The position numbers and the translations under genes were made by a program. DNA of 43,874 nt, taken from positions 1 to 43,874 of the forward strand of contig JAJYLG010000020.1 in the NCBI GenBank assembly GCA_021787985.1, read 5' to 3'. A model generated the notes under the pieces. That model saw only the letters and a program-made list of their open reading frames with translations. It did no database searches and was not told the DNA's origin. The stretch comes from Chloroflexota bacterium (GTDB lineage: Bacteria > Chloroflexota > Dehalococcoidia > DSGV01). Below, one piece after another: positions 15,753-28,568 of this stretch (its first letter is position 1; each line of letters opens with the position of its first letter).

Positions 15753-17114
15753 GTGCGCGCCGTGGGCTTCCTGCGGCCGGGGGCCGAGGACGATCCAGAA
15801 GGCGCGTTCCGCGGGTTCTGCGAACGTAGCGGCTATGAGCCGGCAGGAGTCGTGGTCGCCCCCGCGGCGGGCGACGACACCGCGGCCTTCGTGGAGCTGG
15901 TGGACCTGCTGGCGGCCCAGCCGCGGGCGTTCTTGGCGGTGGCCGTCGAACGGCCGGAGGCGCTCGGGATGACGGCCGCGGCGGCGCTCAACCGGGTCTG
16001 GCAGTTGCAATCCCTGGGCGCGCGCGTGCTCAGCATGGACGGGAGCTCGTCACCCGGACAGGCACTGCTGGAACGCTGGCGGGATGAAGAGCGCGGCACC
16101 GCGCGCGGCGATCGGATCCGTACTGCGATGCGACGACGGGTGGTCCGTGGTGAAGCGCTGGGCCGACCGCCCTACGGCTATCGCATCGGCGGTCGGCGGC
16201 GGCTCGAGCTCGTGCCGGAGGAGGCGCAGGTCGTCCGTTACATCTTTCGCATGTCGTTGCAGGAGGGGCTGGGCGTGCGGCGGATCGCCGGACGGCTCAA
16301 CCAGGAAGGCTATCGGACGCGCAGCGACGGACCGTGGAGCATGGTGACGGTGCGTAACATCCTGCGCAACCGCGTCTACGCCGGCACGTACGTGCGCTTT
16401 GGGGTGCGGGTTGCCGGCAGTCATGCGCCGCTGGTCCAGGCGGCGGCCTTCGACCAGGTTCAGCATCGACTCGACGCTCGTGCCCCACGTTCGGAACAGC
16501 GGCGTGGCGAGCCGTTCGCGCTCGTCGGTGTGGCGCGCTGCGCCGGCTGCGGGGAGCCGATGACCGGCGTCACGCGACGCGGGCGGTGGATGCGCCGTGA
16601 CGGGACGCTGCAGGTGCGTGAGTATCGCTACTACCAGTGCTCGTCGCGCCTGAACCGGACAGTGTGCGAGTACCGGACGTGGCGCGCGGCGGATCTGGAG
16701 GAGCGGGTGCGCCTGCTTCTGGCCGACGCACTCGACGGTTTGCCGACGACCGACGTGCATCCGCCGCAGGCAGCGGCGGGGTCAGCCGATGCGCGCCGGA
16801 TGCGGCAACGGGCCGGGATGGCGCGCCGTCGGCTGTGGGCGCTGTACGACGCCGCGGTGACGGGGCGGGTGCGGGAGCAGGAGTTCGCTGACCGGGCGGT
16901 CGAGGCGGCGGGACGGCTGCTGGAGGCCGAGCGCGCGCTGGCCGGCCGCACGGCCTCGACGAGCGCCGCGACCGACCTGCGCGGTACGCTCGCTCGGCTG
17001 GTCGACGCGTGGCATACGCTGCCGCACGGGGATCTCCGGCGGATGCTCGAATCGGCCGTCGCGCGAGTCGACGTGGACCGCGACCAGGTCCAGGTGCGGC
17101 TGCGTGGCGCCTGA
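15753..17114 (+). CDS. Large serine recombinase homologue, catalytic serine absent
   Basis: 453 aa. Order: a resolvase-like N-terminal domain (1-110), the Recombinase DNA-binding domain (about 118-235, with GRPPYGYRI and the NQEGYRTRSDGPWSMVTVRNILRNRVYAG block), a zinc ribbon (C263, C266, C296, C305), and a C-terminal helical region (about 310-450). In active family members the N-terminal strand reads like YxRxS; here it is GFLRPGAED, so Arg8 is kept but the serine position holds Gly. The later LDRLxR motif reads VERPEALG, keeping one Arg and losing the other. DNA binding seems preserved while strand cleavage probably is not. It lies 4 bp after the zinc-ribbon gene and overlaps rnhA by 11 bp, with no att-like repeats or cargo, so it appears domesticated. 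Confidence 0.85.
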   Translation: MRAVGFLRPGAEDDPEGAFRGFCERSGYEPAGVVVAPAAGDDTAAFVELVDLLAAQPRAFLAVAVERPEALGMTAAAALNRVWQLQSLGARVLSMDGSSSPGQALLERWRDEERGTARGDRIRTAMRRRVVRGEALGRPPYGYRIGGRRRLELVPEEAQVVRYIFRMSLQEGLGVRRIAGRLNQEGYRTRSDGPWSMVTVRNILRNRVYAGTYVRFGVRVAGSHAPLVQAAAFDQVQHRLDARAPRSEQRRGEPFALVGVARCAGCGEPMTGVTRRGRWMRRDGTLQVREYRYYQCSSRLNRTVCEYRTWRAADLEERVRLLLADALDGLPTTDVHPPQAAAGSADARRMRQRAGMARRRLWALYDAAVTGRVREQEFADRAVEAAGRLLEAERALAGRTASTSAATDLRGTLARLVDAWHTLPHGDLRRMLESAVARVDVDRDQVQVRLRGA

Positions 17115-17549: not shown

Positions 17550-17921
17550 GAGCGCCAGGGGACTGGGCGGCCGCGTGGTCCGCTATCGGCGGGCCCCGAG
17601 GAAAGTCCGAGCTCCACCGGGCAGGGTGCCGGGTAACTCCCGGGCGGCGTGAGCCGACGGAAAGTGCCACAGAAACATACCGCCCCGGTCGCCTGTGACC
17701 GGGGTAAGGGTGAAATGGTGCGGTAAGAGCGCACCGGCGGGCGGGAGACCGCTCGGCCGGGTAAACCCCACCCGGAGCAAGACCGAATAGGGGGGCAAAC
17801 GGCGCCCGGCCGGCCCCCGGGTTGGTCGCTGGACTCGGCCGGCAACGGCCGGGCGAGAGAGATGGCCGCCACCGCCGCAGCGCGGCGGTACAGAACTCGG
17901 CTTACAGGTCCCCTGGCGCGA
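17550..17921 (+). ncRNA. rnpB: RNase P RNA (M1, type A)
   Basis: About 372 nt. P1 is formed by GCGCCAGGGGAC near the 5' end and GTCCCCTGGCGC at 17909-17920. The universal core is present in order: GAGGAAAGTCCG (17598-17609), ACAGAAACATACCGCC, GGGTGAAATGGTGCGGTAAGAG, GAGCAAGACCGAATAGGGG and finally CAGAACTCGGCTTACAGG. It is the catalytic RNA that removes tRNA 5' leaders together with RnpA. The ends are set by P1 and could be off by a few bases. From 17922 to 18031 I see no gene and no convincing terminator. Confidence 0.97.
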
Positions 17922-19038: not shown

Positions 19039-19827
19039 ATGCCGGAATTCGACCGCGAGCACTTCCAGGCGCTGCTGCACGCGCGCTGGTGCGGGCGGAA
19101 CCTTGAGTACCACCCGACGGTCGGCTCCACCATGGACCGTGCTCGGGAGCTGGCGAACGAGGGCTGCCCCGAGGGCGCCGTGGTGCTGGCGGACGAGCAG
19201 ACGGCCGGGCGAGGGCGCAAGGGACGCGCCTGGGTGTCGCCCCCGGGAGCGAACCTCTACTTCACCGTCGTGTTGCACCCGGACGCCCGTCTGCTGCCCA
19301 GGCTGGCGTTGGCGGTGCCGCTGGCCGTGCGCTGGGGCTGTTGGACTGTCTGCCAGGTGCGGGCGCGCATCAAGTGGCCGAACGACGTCGTGGTCGGCAC
19401 CCACAAGCTCGCCGGGGTGCTGATCGACGCGGAGCTCAGCGGGGAGACGCCGCGATTCGCGCTCGCGGGCGTTGGGCTGAACGTGAACTTCGACCCGGCC
19501 AACCAGCCCGAGGTTGCGTCGGTCGCCACCAGCCTGCTCGCGGAGACCGGCCGCTTGCAGTCGCGCGAGGCCGTGCTCGCGGCCGTCCTCGAGGCGTTGG
19601 AGCGGCGCGTGGAGCTGGAGCGCCAGGGCCACTCGATCGTCGACGAGTATCGGGACTCGCTCGCCATGCTCGGCGAGTGGGTGGAGCTGCGCTCCGGCGA
19701 CACGGTGATCCACGGCAAGGCGGTCGACATCGCGCCCGACGGTGCGCTGGTTCTGCGGCACGAGGACGGCCGCGAGGTCGCCTACCCCGCCGGCGAGCTC
19801 AGCCTGCGCCCGTTCCCTCGTCCGTGA
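19039..19827 (+). CDS. birA: Biotin--[acetyl-CoA-carboxylase] ligase (monofunctional BirA)
   Basis: 262 aa. Catalytic-domain motifs are [11 protein letters not shown], the biotinyl-AMP loop GRGRKGRAW (near residue 57), and KWPNDVVV with the following [12 protein letters not shown] small C-terminal SH3-like domain (about 215-260) is present. The N-terminal helix-turn-helix of repressor-type BirA is missing, so it is expected to biotinylate the carrier protein without acting as a regulator. The ATG at 19039 follows a TACACT element by 6 nt. Its end overlaps the convergent slipin gene by 29 bp. It serves the acetyl-CoA carboxylase whose carboxyltransferase is at 2258-4087. Confidence 0.92.
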
Positions 19828-20650
19828 CCCCGCCCGCGTCCGGCGGCTCTGCCGTGACCTCCACCGGCGCGGGCCGCACCGTGCGCGCGCCGAGCGCCGA
19901 TACACCGGTCATGAACGGCGCGAGGATATCGACCGGCACGGGAAAGACGATGGTGGAGCTGTTCTCGGTCGCGATCTCGGCCAGCGTTTGCAAGTAGCGC
20001 AGTTGCAGCGATGTCGGGGTCTGCGCCAGCAGCTTGCCGGCATCGGTCAGTCTCGCCGCCGCCTGGAACTCGCCGTCGGCCGCGATCACCTTCGCGCGGC
20101 GCTCGCGTTCCGCCTCGGCCTGCCGGGCCATCGCGCGCTGCATCGTCTGCGGCAGCTCCACGTCCTTGATCTCGACGATCGTCACCTTCACGCCCCACGG
20201 CTCGGTCTGCTCGTCGATGATCTTCTGCAGCCGCTGGTTGATACGCTCGCGTTCCGACAGCACCTCGTCCAGCTCGCTCTGGCCGATGACGTTCCGCAGC
20301 GTCGTCTGCGCGATCTGCGACGTGGCACGAATCATGTCGTAGACTTTGACGACTGCATCCTGGGGGTTCACGACGCGGAAGTAGATCACGGCATTGACCT
20401 TCACCGTGACGTTGTCGCGCGTGATCACCTCCTGGCTCGGCACGTCCATTGCCACGATCCGGAGGTCCATCTTCCGCATCCGCTCGATCATGGGGATCAG
20501 CAGGATCAGCCCGGGCCCGCGCGCACCCACCAAGCGGCCGAGGCGAAAGACGACCCCACGTTCGTACTCCTGCACCACGCGTACCGCCGACGCGAACAGG
20601 ATGATGAGCACACCGAGGATGATGAGCGGAACGACGACCACAACCGTCAT
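19799..20650 (-). CDS. Slipin (SPFH/stomatin family) membrane protein
   Basis: 283 aa. An N-terminal hydrophobic segment (2-22) is followed by the SPFH/band-7 domain: [31 protein letters not shown], then [25 protein letters not shown] coiled-coil region runs around 165-215 ([27 protein letters not shown]), the classic stomatin signature. Such proteins form ring-like membrane assemblies and commonly partner with NfeD proteins; here the ATG makes an ATGA overlap with nfeD upstream. The C-terminal 45 residues are variable and Pro/Ala-rich. Client processes are unknown. Confidence 0.92.
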
Positions 20651-22047
20651 GCTGAGCCTCCTTTCGGGTTTGAACCTTCCGGTGGTTGTTCGCGGCCGGT
20701 GACCGCCGGAGGCGGGAACTGCGCGGCCGGCTGGCGGGGGCGCACACGCAGCCGCAGCCCTTCGACCGCAACGACAATCACGGGCGTACCCGCCGAGACC
20801 GGCCCGTCCTCGGCGGTCGCACGCCAGCGCTCACCCTGTACGGCGACGTAGCCGTCGGGAGCGAGCTCGGTGCGGGCGACGCCGTTGCGCCCAAGCATCC
20901 CTTCCGCGCCTGTCACGGAGGCGCGGCGTCGTGCCCGCAGCAGGGCGGAGAATACGAAGCTGAAGAACGCGGCCACCGCCAGCGCGAGCGGCACCACGGT
21001 CCAGGGAGAGACGCCTGGCCCGCGTCCGCTGCCGCCGGTGAGCATCAACCCGCCGACGACCAGCGCGACCGCGCCACCCAGTCCCAGCGCCCCGAACCCG
21101 CCGACCATCAGCTCGGCGACGAATAGCACGAACGCCGCGCCGATGAGCACCGCTCCTGCCACGTTGACGCCCAGCACTCCCAGGCTGAAGAACGCCAGGA
21201 TGAGCAGGATCGCTCCGGCAACGCCGGGGGCGATGGCGCCCGGGTGGAAGAGCTCGAAGAGCAGCAGCACCCCACCGAGAACCAGGAAGGTGAACGCCAG
21301 GTTCGGGTCCGAGAGGAGGTTGAGGAAACGGTCCACCGGCGACATGGTGAGCTGGGCCCGCGGCGTGCCTTGGGCGATGCGAACGACCTCGGGCCGGCCG
21401 GCCACGAGCGCGGTGCGCCCGTTGGCCCCGTCGATCAGTTGGGAGGGGTCGTTGGCCAAGAAGTCCACCACGTGGAGCTGGACCGCCTGCTGCGCCGTGA
21501 TCGAGACGGCCTCGCGCACGGCCTGCTCCGCCCAGTCGGCGTTGCGTCCGTGCTGCTCGGCGAGCGAGCGGATCTGGGCGGCCGCGTCGTTGGTGATCTT
21601 CTTGCCGAGCGTGCCGCCGATGTTGCCGCCCGTGCTGCTGATGGGCGACGCGGCGCCGATGTTCGTGCCCTGCGCCATCGCCGCGATGCCGGCCGCCATG
21701 GTGATGAACGTACCAGCAGAGGCAGCGCGCGCCCCGGACGGCGCGACCCAGACGGCCACCGGCACGGTCGTGCGCTCGATCCGCTGCACGATCTGGCGCA
21801 TCGACGCCTCGAAGCCTCCGGGGGTGTCCAGCTCGATCACGGCCAGCGACGCATGCGCGCGCTCAGCGTCGCCGAGCGTCCGGTCGAGATAGCGCGCCAT
21901 GACGTCGTTGATGTCGCCGTGAGCGCGGATGAGCACGACCGCGCCGCGCGGGATGCTGCTGCCGCCGCACGCGGATGCGAGCAGCGCGACGGCAAGGACG
22001 AGGGCGGGCACGATGCGTCGCCCGGCGCGGCCCACGCGGAACTTCAT
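20647..22047 (-). CDS. nfeD: NfeD-family membrane-bound serine protease (long form)
   Basis: 466 aa. The signal region (about 10-30) ends LLASACGG, so it may be cleaved as a lipoprotein at Cys30 or thereabouts; the lipobox is weak. A ClpP-like protease domain follows, with [16 protein letters not shown], the catalytic serine in RAASAGTFI, and the lysine in TLGKKITND. Then come 4-5 membrane helices (about 255-375) and a C-terminal OB-fold domain (about 385-450). Long NfeD proteins cleave stomatin partners in archaea, which fits the overlap with the slipin gene. The start was chosen at the ATG at 22047, behind a TACACT element; the frame continues upstream but lies over the divergent hisZ promoter. 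Confidence 0.9.
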
Positions 22048-22056
22048 GGCGCCGCC

Positions 22057-22062
22057 AGTGTA
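22057..22062 (-). promoter_or_regulatory. -10 element of nfeD-slipin
   Basis: Minus-strand TACACT ends 9 nt before the nfeD ATG, giving a leaderless or near-leaderless mRNA. It shares a 90-bp divergent region with the hisZ promoter. Confidence 0.4.
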
Positions 22063-22078
22063 CGCGGTGGCCGCGCGT

Positions 22079-22106
22079 TTGCGTTGCCGTCCTGCGCTGC
22101 TACACT
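22079..22106 (+). promoter_or_regulatory. Promoter of the his operon
   Basis: TTGCGT (22079-22084) and TACACT (22101-22106) with a 16-bp spacer. A leader of about 27 nt contains CCGGAGG before the GTG at 22139. No his leader peptide or attenuator is visible in it. Confidence 0.45.
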
Positions 22107-22138
22107 TCCCTTGTACCCCTGACCGCCCGGAGGCTTGC

Positions 22139-23377
22139 GTGTCGCCCACCAGTGCCGCCCCGCTGCGTGTCCGCGGCATGCGAGACTTGCTGCCCGACGA
22201 GATGGCCGCGTTCCGCAAGCTGGAGGATGCGTTCCGCGACGTCAGCTCCGCCTGGGGCTACCGCGAGGTCCGGACTCCGGCGCTCGAGTACCTGCATCTC
22301 TTCACCTCCGCCGGCACGCTCTCGCCACAGCTCCTCGACCGCGTCTACTCGTTTCTCGACTGGGACGGCTGGAGTGGCGAACGCGTCGTGTTGCGACCGG
22401 ACGGCACGATCCCCGTCGCGCGGCTTTTCGGCGAGTCGGCGCGTGACCTGCTGCCAGCCCGCCTCGCGTACGTGCAGGAGGTGTACCGCTTCGCTACCGG
22501 CGACCAGCCGCGCTCCGAGTGGCAGTGTGGTACCGAGCTGATCGGCGCGGGCGGACCGTTGGCCGATCTGGAGCTGATCGCGGTGGGGGTGGAAACGCTG
22601 CGCCGCTGCGGGGCGCAGGCCGTGCGGGTGAGGGTGTCGCACGCCGGCATCGCCCGGGCGTTGCTCGCGGCGGCGGGGCTCGGGCGGGCCGAGCAGGTTG
22701 CGATGTACGACGCGCTGCTCGCCGGCGACCGCGCCGCGGTCGAGCGGCTGGGCGCGCTCCTGCCGGGGGCGCTCTCCGCGGCCGTCCTACTCGACGTGGC
22801 CGAGGCGGGGGTCGGGTACGTGACCAACCTGCAGGCGCTGCTCGGCGACCGCGTGCCGGGGCTGGCCGAGCCGCTGGCCGAGCTGCGCACCGTGGTGGAG
22901 ACACTCGACCGGCTGCACGTGGACTGCGCGGTCACGCCGCTGCTGGCACGCGACTTCGAGTACTACCGCGGTGTGGTCTTCCGCTTCGACGTCGGTGAGG
23001 CGGACGTGGGCGGCGGTGGTCGGTATGACGGTCTGCTCGAGTTCGTGGGGGCCGCGGACGTGCCGGCGAGCGGATTCGCCTTCGACGTGCCCAGCTTGCT
23101 CGCCGCGGTCCGCATCGAGCCCGGTGGTCCGCTGACCGTGCCGCTCGTCGTGGAGCGAGATGACCCCGCCACCTACGCCGCGGCCATGGCCGCCGCCAAG
23201 CGGTTGCACCGCGCCGGTGTGGCCGCGTCGGTGATGCGGGCGCCGGCGCCGCTCCCGCATCTGGTGGTGGATCTCGAGGACCCGGCGCGTCCGTTCGTGC
23301 TGCGCAGCGACGGCGGTGCCGAGCGCGAGGGCGATCTGGGCGCGGCGCTGGCGCGGCTGGAGCGACTCCGCCGGTGA
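22139..23377 (+). CDS. hisZ: ATP phosphoribosyltransferase regulatory subunit HisZ
   Basis: 412 aa histidyl-tRNA-synthetase-like protein. The class II aaRS core starts at RVRGMRDLLPDEM, with motif 2 around VVLRPDGTIPVARL and YVQEVYRFATGDQPRSEWQCGTELIG. The motif 3-like stretch GGGGRYDGLLEFVG is intact. The anticodon-binding domain of true HisRS is replaced by a short C-terminal domain, and the histidine-specific HisA motifs are changed (DFEYYRGVVFRF retained in part), so HisZ rather than HisRS. It pairs with short-form HisG. The GTG start with GGAGG follows a promoter, and the stop overlaps hisG by GTGA. Confidence 0.88.
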   Translation: MSPTSAAPLRVRGMRDLLPDEMAAFRKLEDAFRDVSSAWGYREVRTPALEYLHLFTSAGTLSPQLLDRVYSFLDWDGWSGERVVLRPDGTIPVARLFGESARDLLPARLAYVQEVYRFATGDQPRSEWQCGTELIGAGGPLADLELIAVGVETLRRCGAQAVRVRVSHAGIARALLAAAGLGRAEQVAMYDALLAGDRAAVERLGALLPGALSAAVLLDVAEAGVGYVTNLQALLGDRVPGLAEPLAELRTVVETLDRLHVDCAVTPLLARDFEYYRGVVFRFDVGEADVGGGGRYDGLLEFVGAADVPASGFAFDVPSLLAAVRIEPGGPLTVPLVVERDDPATYAAAMAAAKRLHRAGVAASVMRAPAPLPHLVVDLEDPARPFVLRSDGGAEREGDLGAALARLERLRR

Positions 23378-24795
23378 TCCGGATCGCGCTGCCCACCGGT
23401 GACATGCGCCGGCCGGTAGCGCAGGCGCTGGCCGGCACCCCACTCGATAGCCCGGACTATGCCGCCGGGTCGCGCGTCTACCGGCTGGGGCTGCCGGACC
23501 GCGGCGACGTGACCATCCGCGTGTTCCGCGAGCGCGACATCCCGATCCAGGTGGCCTTGGGCAACTACCAGCTCGGGGTCTGCGGCGGCGTGTGGGTGGA
23601 GGAGCTGCGCGCGCGCTATCCGGCCGAGGATCTGTCGCCGCTCTTTCCGCTGGCGGTCGGGCGTGGGCGGCTGGCGGCGCTGGCAGCGCCTGAGCAGGCG
23701 GCGCAACTCGGGCCGCTCGAGGAGTGGCAGCGCTTCAGCGGGCTGCGGGTCGTGTCGGAGTTCGGCAACCTGGCCGAGAAGATCGTTGCTCATCTGCGGC
23801 TGCGCCGCCCGCGCGTATACGCCGTGTACGGCGGGGCGCACGCGTATCCGCCGGAGGACGCCGACATCGCCCTCGTTCACCTGGGCGAGGACCAGCAGTC
23901 GCCCGATGGGCTCGTGGAGATGGCTTCGTTCCACGAGAGCGGCCTGTGGGTGGTGGCGAATCGTCGCGCGCTGGCCGGTCTGGACCTGGGCGAGGCGCTC
24001 GCGTCCCTGAGGCCGGCTGCGGCCGCTGTGGAGGGCGGGCTGCGCCTTCCGACCGTGGCGCAGTCGCTCGGCGGCCCGCCCCTGGCGCTCGAGCGGCCGG
24101 AGCGGCCCGCAGGCGTCAGGTTGGCGCTACCGGACGGCCACCAGCAACCGCACGCCCTCGCCAGCGTGCGCGATGCGGGCATCGAGCTCGACGGCTATGG
24201 CGACGCCGACGTACAACTCCGGCCCCGCATCGCGGTTGACGGCGTGACCGTGAAGGTCGTCCGGCCGCAGGATATGCCGCAGCTCGTCGCCCTCGGTCAG
24301 TTCGACATGGCGATCACCGGCCGCGACTGGCTGGCCGATTTCCTGGCCTGCTTCCCGGACGCGCCCGTCGAGATGGCGGTAGACCTCGGGCGGTCCCGCT
24401 ACCACATCGCCGCGGTCGTGGACGAGGATCTGCCGGCGACGACGGTGGACGAGGCGCTGGCGTGCTGGCATGCTCGCGGCCGCCGGATGATCCGGGTTGC
24501 CTCGGAGTACCCGAACCTCGCCGACCGCTACGCGCGCCAGCGGCGGCTGGGACGCTACCAGGTCGTGCCCATCGCCGGCGCGTCCGAGGGCTTCGTTCCG
24601 GAGGACGCGGAGATCCTGATCGAGGGCTCGGAGACCGGGAAGACGATCGTCGCCAACCGGCTGCGCGTGCTCGAGCGTGTGTTCGAGTCGACCAACTGCG
24701 TCGTCATCCACCGCGGGCGGCGGGACGACCCGGTGTTGCAGGGGCTGCTGGAACGCTTTCGCCGCGGCGTGCCGGCGACCACGGCGGTCACGTAG
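23374..24795 (+). CDS. hisG: Tandem-duplicated ATP phosphoribosyltransferase HisG (short form x2)
   Basis: 473 aa, about twice the short-form length. Two HisG modules align end to end: residues 1-225 and 246-473. Shared blocks are RIALPTGDM/RLALPDGHQ, then VTIRVFRERDIPIQVALGNYQLGV/VTVKVVRPQDMPQLVALGQFDMAI, then SEFGNLAEKI/SEYPNLADRY. The C-terminal module keeps the ITGRDWL segment and the PRPP-binding loop IEGSETGKTIVANRL. The N-terminal module has GVCGGVWV and VHLGEDQQSPDG at those places, so it is likely inactive. The enzyme starts histidine synthesis by joining ATP and PRPP. The normal complex is HisG4HisZ4; the fusion may alter that. Confidence 0.85.
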   Translation: MIRIALPTGDMRRPVAQALAGTPLDSPDYAAGSRVYRLGLPDRGDVTIRVFRERDIPIQVALGNYQLGVCGGVWVEELRARYPAEDLSPLFPLAVGRGRLAALAAPEQAAQLGPLEEWQRFSGLRVVSEFGNLAEKIVAHLRLRRPRVYAVYGGAHAYPPEDADIALVHLGEDQQSPDGLVEMASFHESGLWVVANRRALAGLDLGEALASLRPAAAAVEGGLRLPTVAQSLGGPPLALERPERPAGVRLALPDGHQQPHALASVRDAGIELDGYGDADVQLRPRIAVDGVTVKVVRPQDMPQLVALGQFDMAITGRDWLADFLACFPDAPVEMAVDLGRSRYHIAAVVDEDLPATTVDEALACWHARGRRMIRVASEYPNLADRYARQRRLGRYQVVPIAGASEGFVPEDAEILIEGSETGKTIVANRLRVLERVFESTNCVVIHRGRRDDPVLQGLLERFRRGVPATTAVT

Positions 24796-24804: not shown

Positions 24805-25563
24805 GTGCCACCGATCTTCTTGCACATGGCGCTCGCCCGGGACCTGTCCGGCGTGCTCGGAGGTGAGGACATCCTCGCCAACGAGGGCGCGTTCCTGCTG
24901 GGCGCGGCCACGCCCGACATCCGCGTCCTGTTGCGGTGCCCGCGCGAGCAGACCCATTTCTTCAGCCTGGCGACCGACGACCCGCAGGACTCGCTCGCCC
25001 GGCTGTGCGCGGAGCACCCGCGGTTGGCCGACCCGGCCAGGCTCTCGCCCCAGGGGCGCGCCTTCATGGCGGGTTACCTGTCGCACCTCGCCGCCGATGA
25101 GACCTGGATCGAGGACTACTTCCGCCCTTGCTTCCGCGAGGAGAGCGACGCGCCGGAGGAGCTGCGGGGCGACGTACTCGATCGCGTCCTGCAGTTCGAG
25201 CTCGACCGGCGGCGCCGTGAGGACGAGGACCTGCGCGCGCACGTGCGCGAGGCGCTGGCGCGGGTCGCCGTGCCGGAGGAGATCTGCTTCCTTGAACGGC
25301 CGGTGCTCGAACGCTGGGTGGCTGTCTCGTCCGATCAGGCGCTGCACGCACCGGACTGGAATCGTTTCGTCTACCAGGGGGGGCGGCATTTGCAACGGCC
25401 CGAGCTACAGACCGAGGAGGGGATGGCGGCCTTTCTGGAGCAGGTGCCGCGCTTCCTCGGCGCGGCTGTCGAGCGCGTCACTCCGGAGCGGGTTGACGCG
25501 TACGAGCAGACGGCGCGCGAGCGCTCCGTGCGCGTCATCGAGCGGTATCTGACGTGCGCATAG
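24805..25563 (+). CDS. Zinc-dependent phospholipase C-like protein
   Basis: 252 aa, soluble. It resembles the PF00882 group (zinc-dependent phospholipase C-like, often of unknown role): an N-terminal FLHMALARDL, the FLLGAATPDIRVL segment, REQTHFF, and FMAGYLSHLAADETW, in which His and Asp residues are placed like the metal ligands of the S1/P1-PLC fold. There is no signal peptide, so a secreted lipase is unlikely. The gene lies between hisG and hisD, overlapping hisD by 10 bp. That suggests cotranscription but not an obvious histidine role. A phosphatase acting in histidine synthesis (histidinol phosphatase) is possible, yet the motifs do not match the known HisN or HisK families. Confidence 0.6.
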   Translation: MPPIFLHMALARDLSGVLGGEDILANEGAFLLGAATPDIRVLLRCPREQTHFFSLATDDPQDSLARLCAEHPRLADPARLSPQGRAFMAGYLSHLAADETWIEDYFRPCFREESDAPEELRGDVLDRVLQFELDRRRREDEDLRAHVREALARVAVPEEICFLERPVLERWVAVSSDQALHAPDWNRFVYQGGRHLQRPELQTEEGMAAFLEQVPRFLGAAVERVTPERVDAYEQTARERSVRVIERYLTCA

Positions 25564-26879
25564 TCATCGGGGCCGACGAGGCCCGCCGCACCATTTTGCG
25601 GCGCGTGCCGCTGGACGAGTGGGACGTGCCGGATGCCCTCCGCGAGCGCGACACTGCTCTCTTTGGCGAACGCCTGCCCCTGGACGCGCTCATCGGCCGC
25701 ATCATCGCGGAGGTGCGGGCAGGTGGCGACGCGGCCGTGCGCCGGTTCAACCAGGCGCTCGACGGCTCGGCCGATATGCCGGTGGAGGTGCCGCGCGAGG
25801 AGATCGGGCGGGCGTACGCGGAGGTCCCGGCGGACGTGGTCGAGGCGCTCCGCCTCGCGGCCAGCCGGGTGCGCGCGTACCACGAGCGGCAGCTCGCCCA
25901 CAACTGGCGCTCGTTCCACGAGGACGGGCTTGGCCAGGTGGTGCGGCCGCTGCGCAGGGTGGGCGTGTACATGCCCGGCACGGCGGTCGTCTATCCGTCC
26001 TCCGTGCTGCACACCGTCGTGCCGGCGCGGGTGGCGGGGGTGAAAGAGGTGGTGCTGGCCGGGCCCGCCGGGGCGTCCGGCGCCGTCCACCCGCTCAAGC
26101 TCGTCGCGGCCGACATTGCCGGTGTGGACCGCGTGTTCCGTGCGAGCGGCGCGCAGGGGATCGCGGCGCTGGCCTACGGGACGGAGTCGGTATCGCCCGT
26201 GGACAAGATCTGTGGGCCCGGCAGTCTGTTCGTCACGCTCGCCAAACGACGCGTGTACGGCGTGGTCGGCGTCGACGCGCTCTACGGGCCCACGGAGACG
26301 GTGGTCGTGGCGGATGAGAGCGCCGACCCGCGGCTATGCGCGGCTGATCTGTTGGCGCAGGCCGAGCATGATGTGCTTGCCAGCCCGGTGCTGCTGACCG
26401 ACTCCCTCCGCCTCGCGCGCGCCGTGCAGGCGGAGGTCGACCGGCAGATCGGGCCGCTGGAGCGCGGCCACGTCGCCCGCCAGGCGTTCGACAACCGCGG
26501 CGGCGCGGTGGTGACCGCGAGCATCGACGAGGCGGTCGAGCTGGCGAACGAGTTCGCGCCCGAGCACCTGTGCCTGCTGCTACGGGACCCGTGGCGCTAC
26601 GCGGACCTGGTGCGCAACGCTGGCGGCCTGTTCGTGGGCGAGTCGTCGCCCGAGGCGCTCGGCGACTACATCGCTGGCCCCAGCCACGCGATGCCTACCG
26701 GCGGCTGCGCGCGCTTCCAGTCGCCGCTGTCGGTGAACGACTTCTTGCGGATCATCTCCGTCGTGGCGGTGGACGAGTCGACGTTCGAGCGGCTGGCGCC
26801 GGCCGCGGCGCGTATCGCTCGTGCGGAGGGGCTGACGGCGCACGCACGGGCGCTCGAGATGCGACTGGAAGGGCGATGA
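25554..26879 (+). CDS. hisD: Histidinol dehydrogenase HisD
   Basis: 441 aa. Characteristic blocks: GVYMPGTAVVYPSSVLHTVVPARVAGV, the QAEHD zinc ligands in LLAQAEHDVLASPV, the catalytic EH pair in FAPEHLCL, and AGPSHAMPTGGCARFQSPLSVNDF. The final zinc-ligand His is in GLTAHARALEMR. The family's GPSE reads GPTE and GPGN reads GPGS, conservative changes near the NAD site. It performs the last two oxidations to histidine. The GTG at 25554 overlaps the preceding gene by 10 bp and the TGA overlaps hisC by 4 bp. Confidence 0.95.
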   Translation: MRIVIGADEARRTILRRVPLDEWDVPDALRERDTALFGERLPLDALIGRIIAEVRAGGDAAVRRFNQALDGSADMPVEVPREEIGRAYAEVPADVVEALRLAASRVRAYHERQLAHNWRSFHEDGLGQVVRPLRRVGVYMPGTAVVYPSSVLHTVVPARVAGVKEVVLAGPAGASGAVHPLKLVAADIAGVDRVFRASGAQGIAALAYGTESVSPVDKICGPGSLFVTLAKRRVYGVVGVDALYGPTETVVVADESADPRLCAADLLAQAEHDVLASPVLLTDSLRLARAVQAEVDRQIGPLERGHVARQAFDNRGGAVVTASIDEAVELANEFAPEHLCLLLRDPWRYADLVRNAGGLFVGESSPEALGDYIAGPSHAMPTGGCARFQSPLSVNDFLRIISVVAVDESTFERLAPAAARIARAEGLTAHARALEMRLEGR

Positions 26880-27988
26880 ACCCGCCCGACCTGCTCGGCC
26901 GGCTCGTGCGGCCGGAAATCCAGTCTTTGCCGGGTTACGAGCCGGTGGAGCCGCTCGAGGAGTGGGTCCGCCGCACGGGCATCGCGCGCGAGCGCGTCGC
27001 CAAGCTCGACGGGAACGAGAACCTGCATGGCCTGCACCCGGTCGTGCGCGCCGCGCTCGCCGAAGACGAGGATCACCTCTACCCGGACCCGGACCAGCGG
27101 ACGCTGCGGGAGGCGATCGCCGGCTACGCCGGCTGCGCGCCCGAGCAGGTGGTGGCCGGCGCGGGGAGCGATGACCTGCTCGATCTCGTCATTCGCGCGG
27201 TCGTGCGGCCCGGGGACCGGGTGATCGATTGCACGCCGACGTTCGGCATGTATCCGTTCCTGGCGCGCATCGCCGGCGCCGAGGTGGTGGAGGCGCCGCG
27301 CCACCCGGAGACGTGGGAGATCGACCCGGCGGCCGTTGCCGAGCAGGTGGACATGCGCGCGCGCGTGGTGTTCGTGGCGACGCCCAACAACCCGACGGGG
27401 AACCTCACGTCGCCGCGGGCGATCGAGGACCTTCTGCGGCTGCCGGTGCTGGTCGTCCTCGACGAGGCGTACGGGGAGTTCGCCGGGGTCTCGAACGTGG
27501 CGCGAGTTGCCGAGCATCCGAATCTGGTGGTCACGCGGACGTTCAGCAAGTGGGCCGGGCTGGCCGGCTTGCGTGCCGGCTACGCGGTCATGCACCCGTG
27601 GCTCGCCGAGCGGCTGATGACGATCAAGCAGCCGTACAACGTCAACACGGCCGCGTACCGCGCCGCGCTGGCCGCGCTCCGCGTGCGCCACGAGCTGACC
27701 GAGACGGTGCGCGCGATCGTGGCCGAGCGCGACCGGCTGGCGCCGCTGCTGCGCGCTACCGGCTTCCTCGACCCGTACCCGTCACAGGCGAACTTCGTCC
27801 TGTGTCGCGTGAAGGGCGACGCGCGGGCGCTGCAGGGGGCGCTGCGCGAGCGGGGCGTGCTGGTACGCTACTTCCGGCATCCGGCCGTGGCCGACTGCGT
27901 CCGCATCAGCGTGGCGCGGCGGAGGGAGACCGATCTTCTGATGCGGGCGCTGGAGGAGGCGGGACGTGAGCTCGGGTACGCCACGTAA
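26876..27988 (+). CDS. hisC: Histidinol-phosphate aminotransferase HisC
   Basis: 370 aa fold-type I PLP enzyme. Motifs: KLDGNENLHG near residue 43, YPDPDQRTLREAIAGY, the TPNNPTGN loop, the LDEAYGEF aspartate-tyrosine, and PLP lysine Lys225 in TFSKWAGLAGLRAG. The C-terminal SQANFVLCR and VRISVARR complete the signature. It transfers an amino group from glutamate to imidazole acetol phosphate. The ATG at 26876 forms an ATGA overlap with hisD; hisB begins inside its last 23 bp. Confidence 0.95.
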   Translation: MNPPDLLGRLVRPEIQSLPGYEPVEPLEEWVRRTGIARERVAKLDGNENLHGLHPVVRAALAEDEDHLYPDPDQRTLREAIAGYAGCAPEQVVAGAGSDDLLDLVIRAVVRPGDRVIDCTPTFGMYPFLARIAGAEVVEAPRHPETWEIDPAAVAEQVDMRARVVFVATPNNPTGNLTSPRAIEDLLRLPVLVVLDEAYGEFAGVSNVARVAEHPNLVVTRTFSKWAGLAGLRAGYAVMHPWLAERLMTIKQPYNVNTAAYRAALAALRVRHELTETVRAIVAERDRLAPLLRATGFLDPYPSQANFVLCRVKGDARALQGALRERGVLVRYFRHPAVADCVRISVARRRETDLLMRALEEAGRELGYAT

Positions 27989-28568
27989 GGCACGGGTCGA
28001 ACGGGAGACGCGAGAAACGCGCGTGGCCGTCGAGGTGTGCCTCGACGGCGGAGGGGGCTGCGCCGTCGATACCGGCATCGGCATGCTTGACCATATGCTC
28101 GAGCAGATCGCTCGCCACGGGCTCTTCGATCTCGAGGTTTCCGCCAGCGGCGACCTGGACCGGGACGAGCATCACCTGGTGGAGGACGTCGGTCTGTGCC
28201 TGGGCGCGGCCTTCGACGAGGCCCTCGGGGACCGCGCCGGGCTCGTGCGCATGGGACACGCCGTGGTCCCTATGGACGAGACGCTCGTGCTGGCGGCGCT
28301 CGATCTCAGCGGGCGTGGTTACGCCACCGCGGATCTGAAGTTCGAGCGCGACCGTGTGGGCCAGCTTCCGACGGAGCTGGTGTCGCACTTCCTCGAATCG
28401 TTCGCTCGCACGGCGCGGATGACGCTGCATGTCCGCGAGCTGGCGGGCGGGAACGACCACCACCGTATGGAGGCGGCGTTCAAGGCGTTGGCGCGGGCGC
28501 TGGGGACGGCCGTGCGCCGCGACGCGCGCGCGGGCCAGGACGTGCCGAGCACGAAGGGCTCGCTGTAG
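27966..28568 (+). CDS. hisB: Imidazoleglycerol-phosphate dehydratase HisB
   Basis: 200 aa monofunctional form. The two metal-binding repeats are seen as MLDHMLEQIARHGLFDL with DEHHLVEDVG (HHxxED), and SHFLESFARTARMTLHV with GNDHHRMEAAFKALARAL. The last residues VPSTKGSL are the family C-terminus. It dehydrates imidazole glycerol phosphate. No fused phosphatase domain is present, so histidinol-phosphate phosphatase must come from elsewhere. It ends the his run, 8 bp from the convergent purS end. hisA, hisF, hisH and hisIE are not in the window. Confidence 0.95.
   Translation: MSSGTPRKARVERETRETRVAVEVCLDGGGGCAVDTGIGMLDHMLEQIARHGLFDLEVSASGDLDRDEHHLVEDVGLCLGAAFDEALGDRAGLVRMGHAVVPMDETLVLAALDLSGRGYATADLKFERDRVGQLPTELVSHFLESFARTARMTLHVRELAGGNDHHRMEAAFKALARALGTAVRRDARAGQDVPSTKGSL

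Follow-up and report, generated by a model that had tools for sequence, protein, structure and literature searches.

A tandem hisG of Dehalococcoidia joins two HisG modules that have kept different active-site residues

The window (the whole stretch of 43,874 nucleotides that we analyzed, from a Chloroflexota bacterium of the class Dehalococcoidia) carries hisZ, hisG, hisD, a hisC-type gene and hisB on the forward strand, and its hisG encodes two HisG modules fused in a single protein. Histidine synthesis begins with HisG, the step that controls flux and is subject to feedback regulation, and HisZ is the histidine sensor of the short-form HisG enzymes. The features of the locus are as follows:

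22139 to 23377, forward strand: hisZ, start approximate, overlapping hisG by 4 bases (PF13393, 190.5 bits)
23374 to 24795, forward strand: tandem hisG, two HisG modules in one frame (open reading frame and profile matches)
23374 to 24018, forward strand: N-module, residues 1-215, HisG fold without a PRPP loop (profiles, predicted structure)
24019 to 24114, forward strand: linker, residues 216-247, variable across the fused HisG family
24115 to 24792, forward strand: C-module, residues 248-473, putative catalytic HisG module (profiles, alignment, predicted structure)
24805 to 25563, forward strand: zinc-dependent phospholipase C-like gene between hisG and hisD (PF00882, 27.4 bits, barely above the cut-off)
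25554 to 26879, forward strand: hisD (PF00815, 476.8 bits)
26870 to 27988, forward strand: hisC-type aminotransferase gene, start approximate (PF00155, 204.2 bits)
27966 to 28568, forward strand: hisB, IGPD (PF00475, 207.5 bits)

Matches of hisA/hisF type and hisI type lie on another contig of the same genome, so the histidine pathway looks functional. A sequence-only reading of this DNA had placed HisZ next door to HisG, and the 4-base overlap agrees with it. The best NCBIfam match of the window HisZ is TIGR00443, at 186.9 bits, well short of its cut-off (271.65), and automated annotation may therefore overlook this gene. A second PF13393 match, presumed to be hisS, is on another contig.

The tandem hisG is a single intact open reading frame with a GTG start, 473 codons for amino acids and no internal stop. 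The Pfam HisG profile (PF01634, gathering cut-off 25.5 bits) scores 120.5 bits on the whole protein, and each half passes when run separately (N-half: 34.5 bits, residues 52-198; C-half: 89.6 bits). The NCBIfam profile TIGR00070 (cut-off 75.75 bits) gives 148.7 bits for the whole protein, 100.1 for the C-half and 52.7 for the N-half, which alone is thus below that cut-off. The two halves are 29% identical (E = 3e-14), and their similarity is far above chance, since the Smith-Waterman score is 160 whereas 300 shuffles gave a mean of 34.7 (sd 5.7) and a maximum of 67. The sequence-only reading, which took the protein for two fused short-form HisG modules, is therefore borne out, and the repeat blocks that it quoted are present in both halves in the order claimed. 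In the window's genome, a profile search returned no match to HisG_C (PF08029), the long-form C-terminal domain, and no second HisG, leaving the tandem gene as the only one found.

The fused form is spread through the class. We sampled Dehalococcoidia genomes at least 80% complete and found one HisG match in 97, two in 176, three in five and none in 15, so that 176 of the 278 HisG-bearing genomes have two. HisG_C is present in 81 of the 97 single-HisG genomes vs. 2 of the 176 two-match genomes. Reading part of the two-match genomes together with public records, we retrieved and aligned 117 distinct proteins that carry the two modules in a single frame; this number, drawn from many genomes, rules out an assembly artifact or chimeric contig. 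This class-wide spread had escaped the sequence-only reading, which had called for a survey of fused vs. single hisG and of hisZ among relatives. hisZ lies upstream of hisG in all 111 fused loci in which the sequence reaches back about 600 bases or further, a count slightly biased in that about 20 loci were selected via their hisZ match; the remaining six begin within 400 bases of hisG and were left out of it. Replacement of HisZ by the N-half is thereby ruled out as a general rule. Outside the class, five genomes of a 251-genome phylum sample have two HisG matches, none of them tandem, the matches being on separate contigs or fragments. A scan of 84,980 species genomes, which detects close relatives only, returned Chloroflexota records alone. 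As far as sampled, the tandem hisG is confined to one class. Two assemblies (G113 and G235) contain a tandem HisG alongside one of the long form, which may be coexistence, horizontal transfer or contamination.

In a tree of HisG modules, a quick one with no bootstrap and no known root, the N-modules, the C-modules and the single HisGs are each set apart from the rest by a single branch (SH-aLRT 100, 96 and 98, respectively). Because the N-modules and C-modules form separate clades, the tree is consistent with a single event of duplication and fusion that predates the diversification of the class. In one genome (G056, locus L157, 2494-4251, forward strand), each module has its own gene, the stop of the first and the start of the second overlapping as TGATG, and the N-gene retains the arginine discussed below and has no PRPP loop. 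We considered this locus as the ancestral unfused state and rejected it: its modules branch from within the N and C clades, at weakly supported forks, which makes fission as likely. In another (G040, locus L138, 2327-3693, forward strand), the tandem is broken at the module junction, apparently by a single frameshift.

We counted residues over the 117 fused proteins, with positions in the numbering of Psychrobacter arcticus HisG (PaHisG), and compared 76 single HisGs. At 62% identity the effective number of sequences is about 51 for the N-modules and about 19 for the C-modules. The relevant sites in the window are:

23473 to 23475, forward strand: codon of R34, equivalent of PaHisG Arg56, which acts across the dimer there; R or K in 116/117 N-modules
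23875 to 23910, forward strand: residues 168-179 of the N-module, VHLGEDQQSPDG, at the site of the missing PRPP loop; the alignment of the fused family is gapped here and shows no conservation
24133 to 24141, forward strand: DGH, residues 254-256, vs. KGR (PaHisG R32) of short-form HisGs; D in 116, G in 117 and H in 117 of 117 C-modules
24211 to 24213, forward strand: V280, the Arg56 position of the C-module, arginine lost; R or K in 2/117 C-modules
24262 to 24264, forward strand: R297, equivalent of PaHisG Arg73 (ATP gamma-phosphate); 117/117 C-modules, 26/117 N-modules
24319 to 24327, forward strand: GRD, residues 316-318; G and D in 117/117 C-modules
24622 to 24663, forward strand: PRPP loop of the C-module, residues 417-430, EGSETGKTIVANRL; T421 and G422 in 116/117, residue 424 T in 106 and S in 10

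The C-module keeps the residues of a substrate pocket. Besides R73, positions G92, D94 and E163 are conserved in all 117 C-modules, D/E176 in 116, and T180, G181 and T/S183 of the PRPP loop in 116 each. The PRPP loop, the GRD-type motif and the equivalent of Arg73, which contacts the ATP gamma-phosphate in HisG (PMC10795190), are all found there, as in the catalytic module of short-form enzymes. The N-modules have G92 in 59, D94 in 57, E163 in 95, and essentially no PRPP-loop residues. This agrees with the claim of the sequence-only reading that GRD and the ETGKT-type loop are confined to the C-module: in the window, the loop core SETGKT is at residues 419-424 of the C-half, and the N-half has GGV at the GRD place and VHLGEDQQSPDG at the loop place.

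The pattern is reversed at the Arg56 position. The arginine is retained in nearly every N-module and lost from nearly every C-module, so that, unlike in short-form HisGs, it and the PRPP loop belong to different modules. The single HisGs have R there in 63 of 76, and several of the others have an arginine one column off. The placement of R34 was reproduced by a profile of the N-half against PDB HisG sequences, and the C-half alignment is gapless on either side of position 280. Scanning the positions conserved in single HisGs, we found just L33, R56, G89 and P166 to be retained by the N-modules and missing from the C-modules, and Arg56 is the sole charged residue among the four; D176, G181 and T183 show the opposite pattern, with R73, G92 and D94 graded likewise. 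Not every change of the first kind needs a catalytic reading, because position 33, beside the KGR/DGH motif, shows it too.

Structure prediction gave a mean pLDDT of 94.8 and a pTM of 0.92 for the whole chain, and 95.9 and 0.89 for the N-module alone. For both models the best 50 PDB matches are all HisG entries, with TM-scores by query length of 0.70-0.83 for the N-module, so the N-half has a predicted HisG fold. The sequence-only reading had named a foreign fold or conserved PRPP residues in the N-half as findings that would overturn it; the fold is HisG and the PRPP loop is not conserved, so it withstands both checks. For a chain of two modules, so high a pTM indicates that their relative placement is confidently predicted; we infer that N and C pair in canonical dimer geometry, with R34 at the C-pocket.

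When PaHisG is activated by HisZ, Arg56 of one catalytic subunit extends over the dimer interface to the pyrophosphate of the PRPP in its partner (PMC9734150), and the mechanism of HisZ activation has been argued from the positioning of this arginine. The R56A substitution lowers activity 42-fold; some activity remains, and HisZ largely rescues it (PMC9734150). The homodimers of Acinetobacter baumannii HisG are arranged head to tail, and their active sites flank a crevice between the subunits (PMC10795190). Retention of Arg56 in N and its loss in C is the pattern expected if the two modules pair as an ordinary dimer does. The explanation we favor, with a probability of roughly 0.6, is an obligate pseudo-heterodimer with one composite site per chain, made of the C-module pocket and the N-module arginine. 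The halves of the usual HisG homodimer would have been joined in one chain and then specialized. The C-module would hold the substrate pocket with its PRPP loop, GRD and ATP-contacting arginine and would carry out catalysis, whereas the N-module would have given up its own pocket and would pack on the C-module as dimer partner, supplying R34 to the C pocket, where it would stabilize the leaving pyrophosphate. If the modules pair canonically, the C-module's own arginine would face the N pocket, which is dead, and could be lost freely. Activation of the fused enzyme, and its feedback inhibition by histidine, most likely still go through HisZ. The sequence-only reading had proposed the N-half as a built-in dimerizing partner, a suggestion that the reciprocal retention of Arg56 supports and sharpens; its term "non-catalytic" holds in that the N-half has no PRPP loop, but is probably too strong, because the N-half keeps a residue that acts in the partner's site in a characterized HisG. 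Its further suggestion of a changed HisG/HisZ ratio would follow from the fusion by inference only.

Two features of the C-module speak against a composite site. The first is an arginine pair near the lost Arg56, at PaHisG positions 58 and 59 (R282 in 93/117 and R283 in 99/117; 24217-24222), which could substitute for Arg56 if the register of the hairpin were shifted; the window itself has L282-R283 at these positions, and in N-modules R37, at the position equal to C-module R283, is present in 103/117. The second is that the C-module has DGH for KGR and thus no equivalent of Arg32, so its leaving-group chemistry may differ from that of PaHisG more broadly; R32A costs PaHisG 25-fold, and KGR is also variable in other Chloroflexota HisGs. 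In the window, residues 254-258 (24133-24147) contain the DGH, invariant in C-modules, and a nearly invariant Q258, which together are a possible family-specific catalytic motif. We do not grade the composite-site reading higher because DGH or the arginine pair could take over stabilization of the leaving group.

These same residues are the strength of the foremost rival, in which the N-module is a scaffold only (a pseudo-dimer half and docking surface for HisZ) and the C-module catalyzes through its own R282/R283 and DGH. Both arginines are conserved and sit two or three residues past the site of Arg56, DGH hardly varies, and R56A in PaHisG is partly active and largely HisZ-rescued (PMC9734150). 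A pure scaffold, however, leaves unexplained why R34 is kept in 116 of 117 N-modules while the position is lost in 115 of 117 C-modules, and the gapless alignment on both sides of position 280 also argues against it; we regard it as unlikely, although deserving serious weight. We think it improbable that the N-module is a regulatory domain, in which histidine, AMP or another signal would bind a modified pocket and control the C-module. N-modules are conserved and retain parts of the pocket, such as E at position 163 in 95 of 117, but HisZ, the histidine sensor, is encoded beside every fused gene with enough upstream DNA, which means that the customary regulator is still in place, and the sequence that stands where the PRPP loop was varies among members, with no new conserved motif; the regulatory subunit suggested by the sequence-only reading thus finds no support. 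That the N-module is redundant sequence decaying after duplication, as its low HisG scores in the window (about 35 bits) and one relative (32.6 bits) might suggest, is very improbable given 117 different proteins with unbroken frames, an N-half in which six alignment columns are invariant and 22 more nearly so, a mean pairwise N-half identity of 43% (52% for the C-half), a fold predicted at pLDDT 95.9, and far higher scores in most other members (up to about 100 bits). Having lost its catalytic loops, the N-half is "degraded" in that respect, but its conservation across the fused family despite this loss makes it look specialized.

Returning to the composite site, we hold more tentatively, at somewhat under even odds, a broader proposal: a dead module kept for lending its arginine is combined with a re-tooled leaving-group site (DGH, R282-R283), giving one site per chain and half the usual number of sites per HisZ tetramer.

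The fused protein shares with short-form HisGS enzymes that work with HisZ (P. arcticus, A. baumannii, Lactococcus lactis, Thermotoga maritima) the catalytic fold, the PRPP loop, the absence of HisG_C and an adjacent hisZ. The cross-dimer arginine is common to both, but in the fused protein it is on the N-module only. Short-form enzymes consist of a single module of about 200-230 amino acids with KGR, whereas the 473-residue fused protein has two modules per chain, one of them without a PRPP loop, with arginine and pocket split between them and DGH in the putative catalytic module. Long-form HisGL (Escherichia coli, Mycobacterium tuberculosis, and sister genomes of the class) is likewise a single-gene HisG with a PF01634 module, but the fused protein has no PF08029, its second half is a HisG module and not an ACT-like regulatory domain, and we infer that it needs HisZ. 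A parallel in the pathway is the gene elongation of hisA/hisF (fused half-barrels), where a unit that had worked as a dimer was likewise duplicated and fused; that event is ancient and universal, whereas the fused hisG is of one class as far as sampled, and its halves would divide the catalytic residues of one active site. hisG thus joins the his genes shaped by duplication and fusion. Two reviews give his gene fusions without hisG among them, hisZ-hisG fusions have been mentioned (PMC9413887), and we found no tandem or fused HisG in the open literature searched, which is weak evidence as most subscription papers lie outside it. In an ordinary homodimer any mutation strikes both subunits together; here the arginine donor and the pocket are apparently separated on one chain and so independently mutable. 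The plain automated name "ATP phosphoribosyltransferase" hides this distinct architecture in a whole class.

Some neighbors of the locus deserve mention. A homolog of the phospholipase C-like gene lies 3′ of the fused hisG in 64 of the 117 loci; no HisJ above its cut-off was found in the window's genome, an inositol-phosphatase-family gene is present there, and the phospholipase C-like gene may serve histidine synthesis, for example as a phosphatase. Upstream, adjacent genes for a Band-7/SPFH protein and an NfeD protein (19799-22218, reverse strand) point away from hisZ, and a bacterial RNase P RNA of class A (17555-17920, forward strand, 278.6 bits) adjoins a serine-recombinase-type gene (15753-17114, PF07508).
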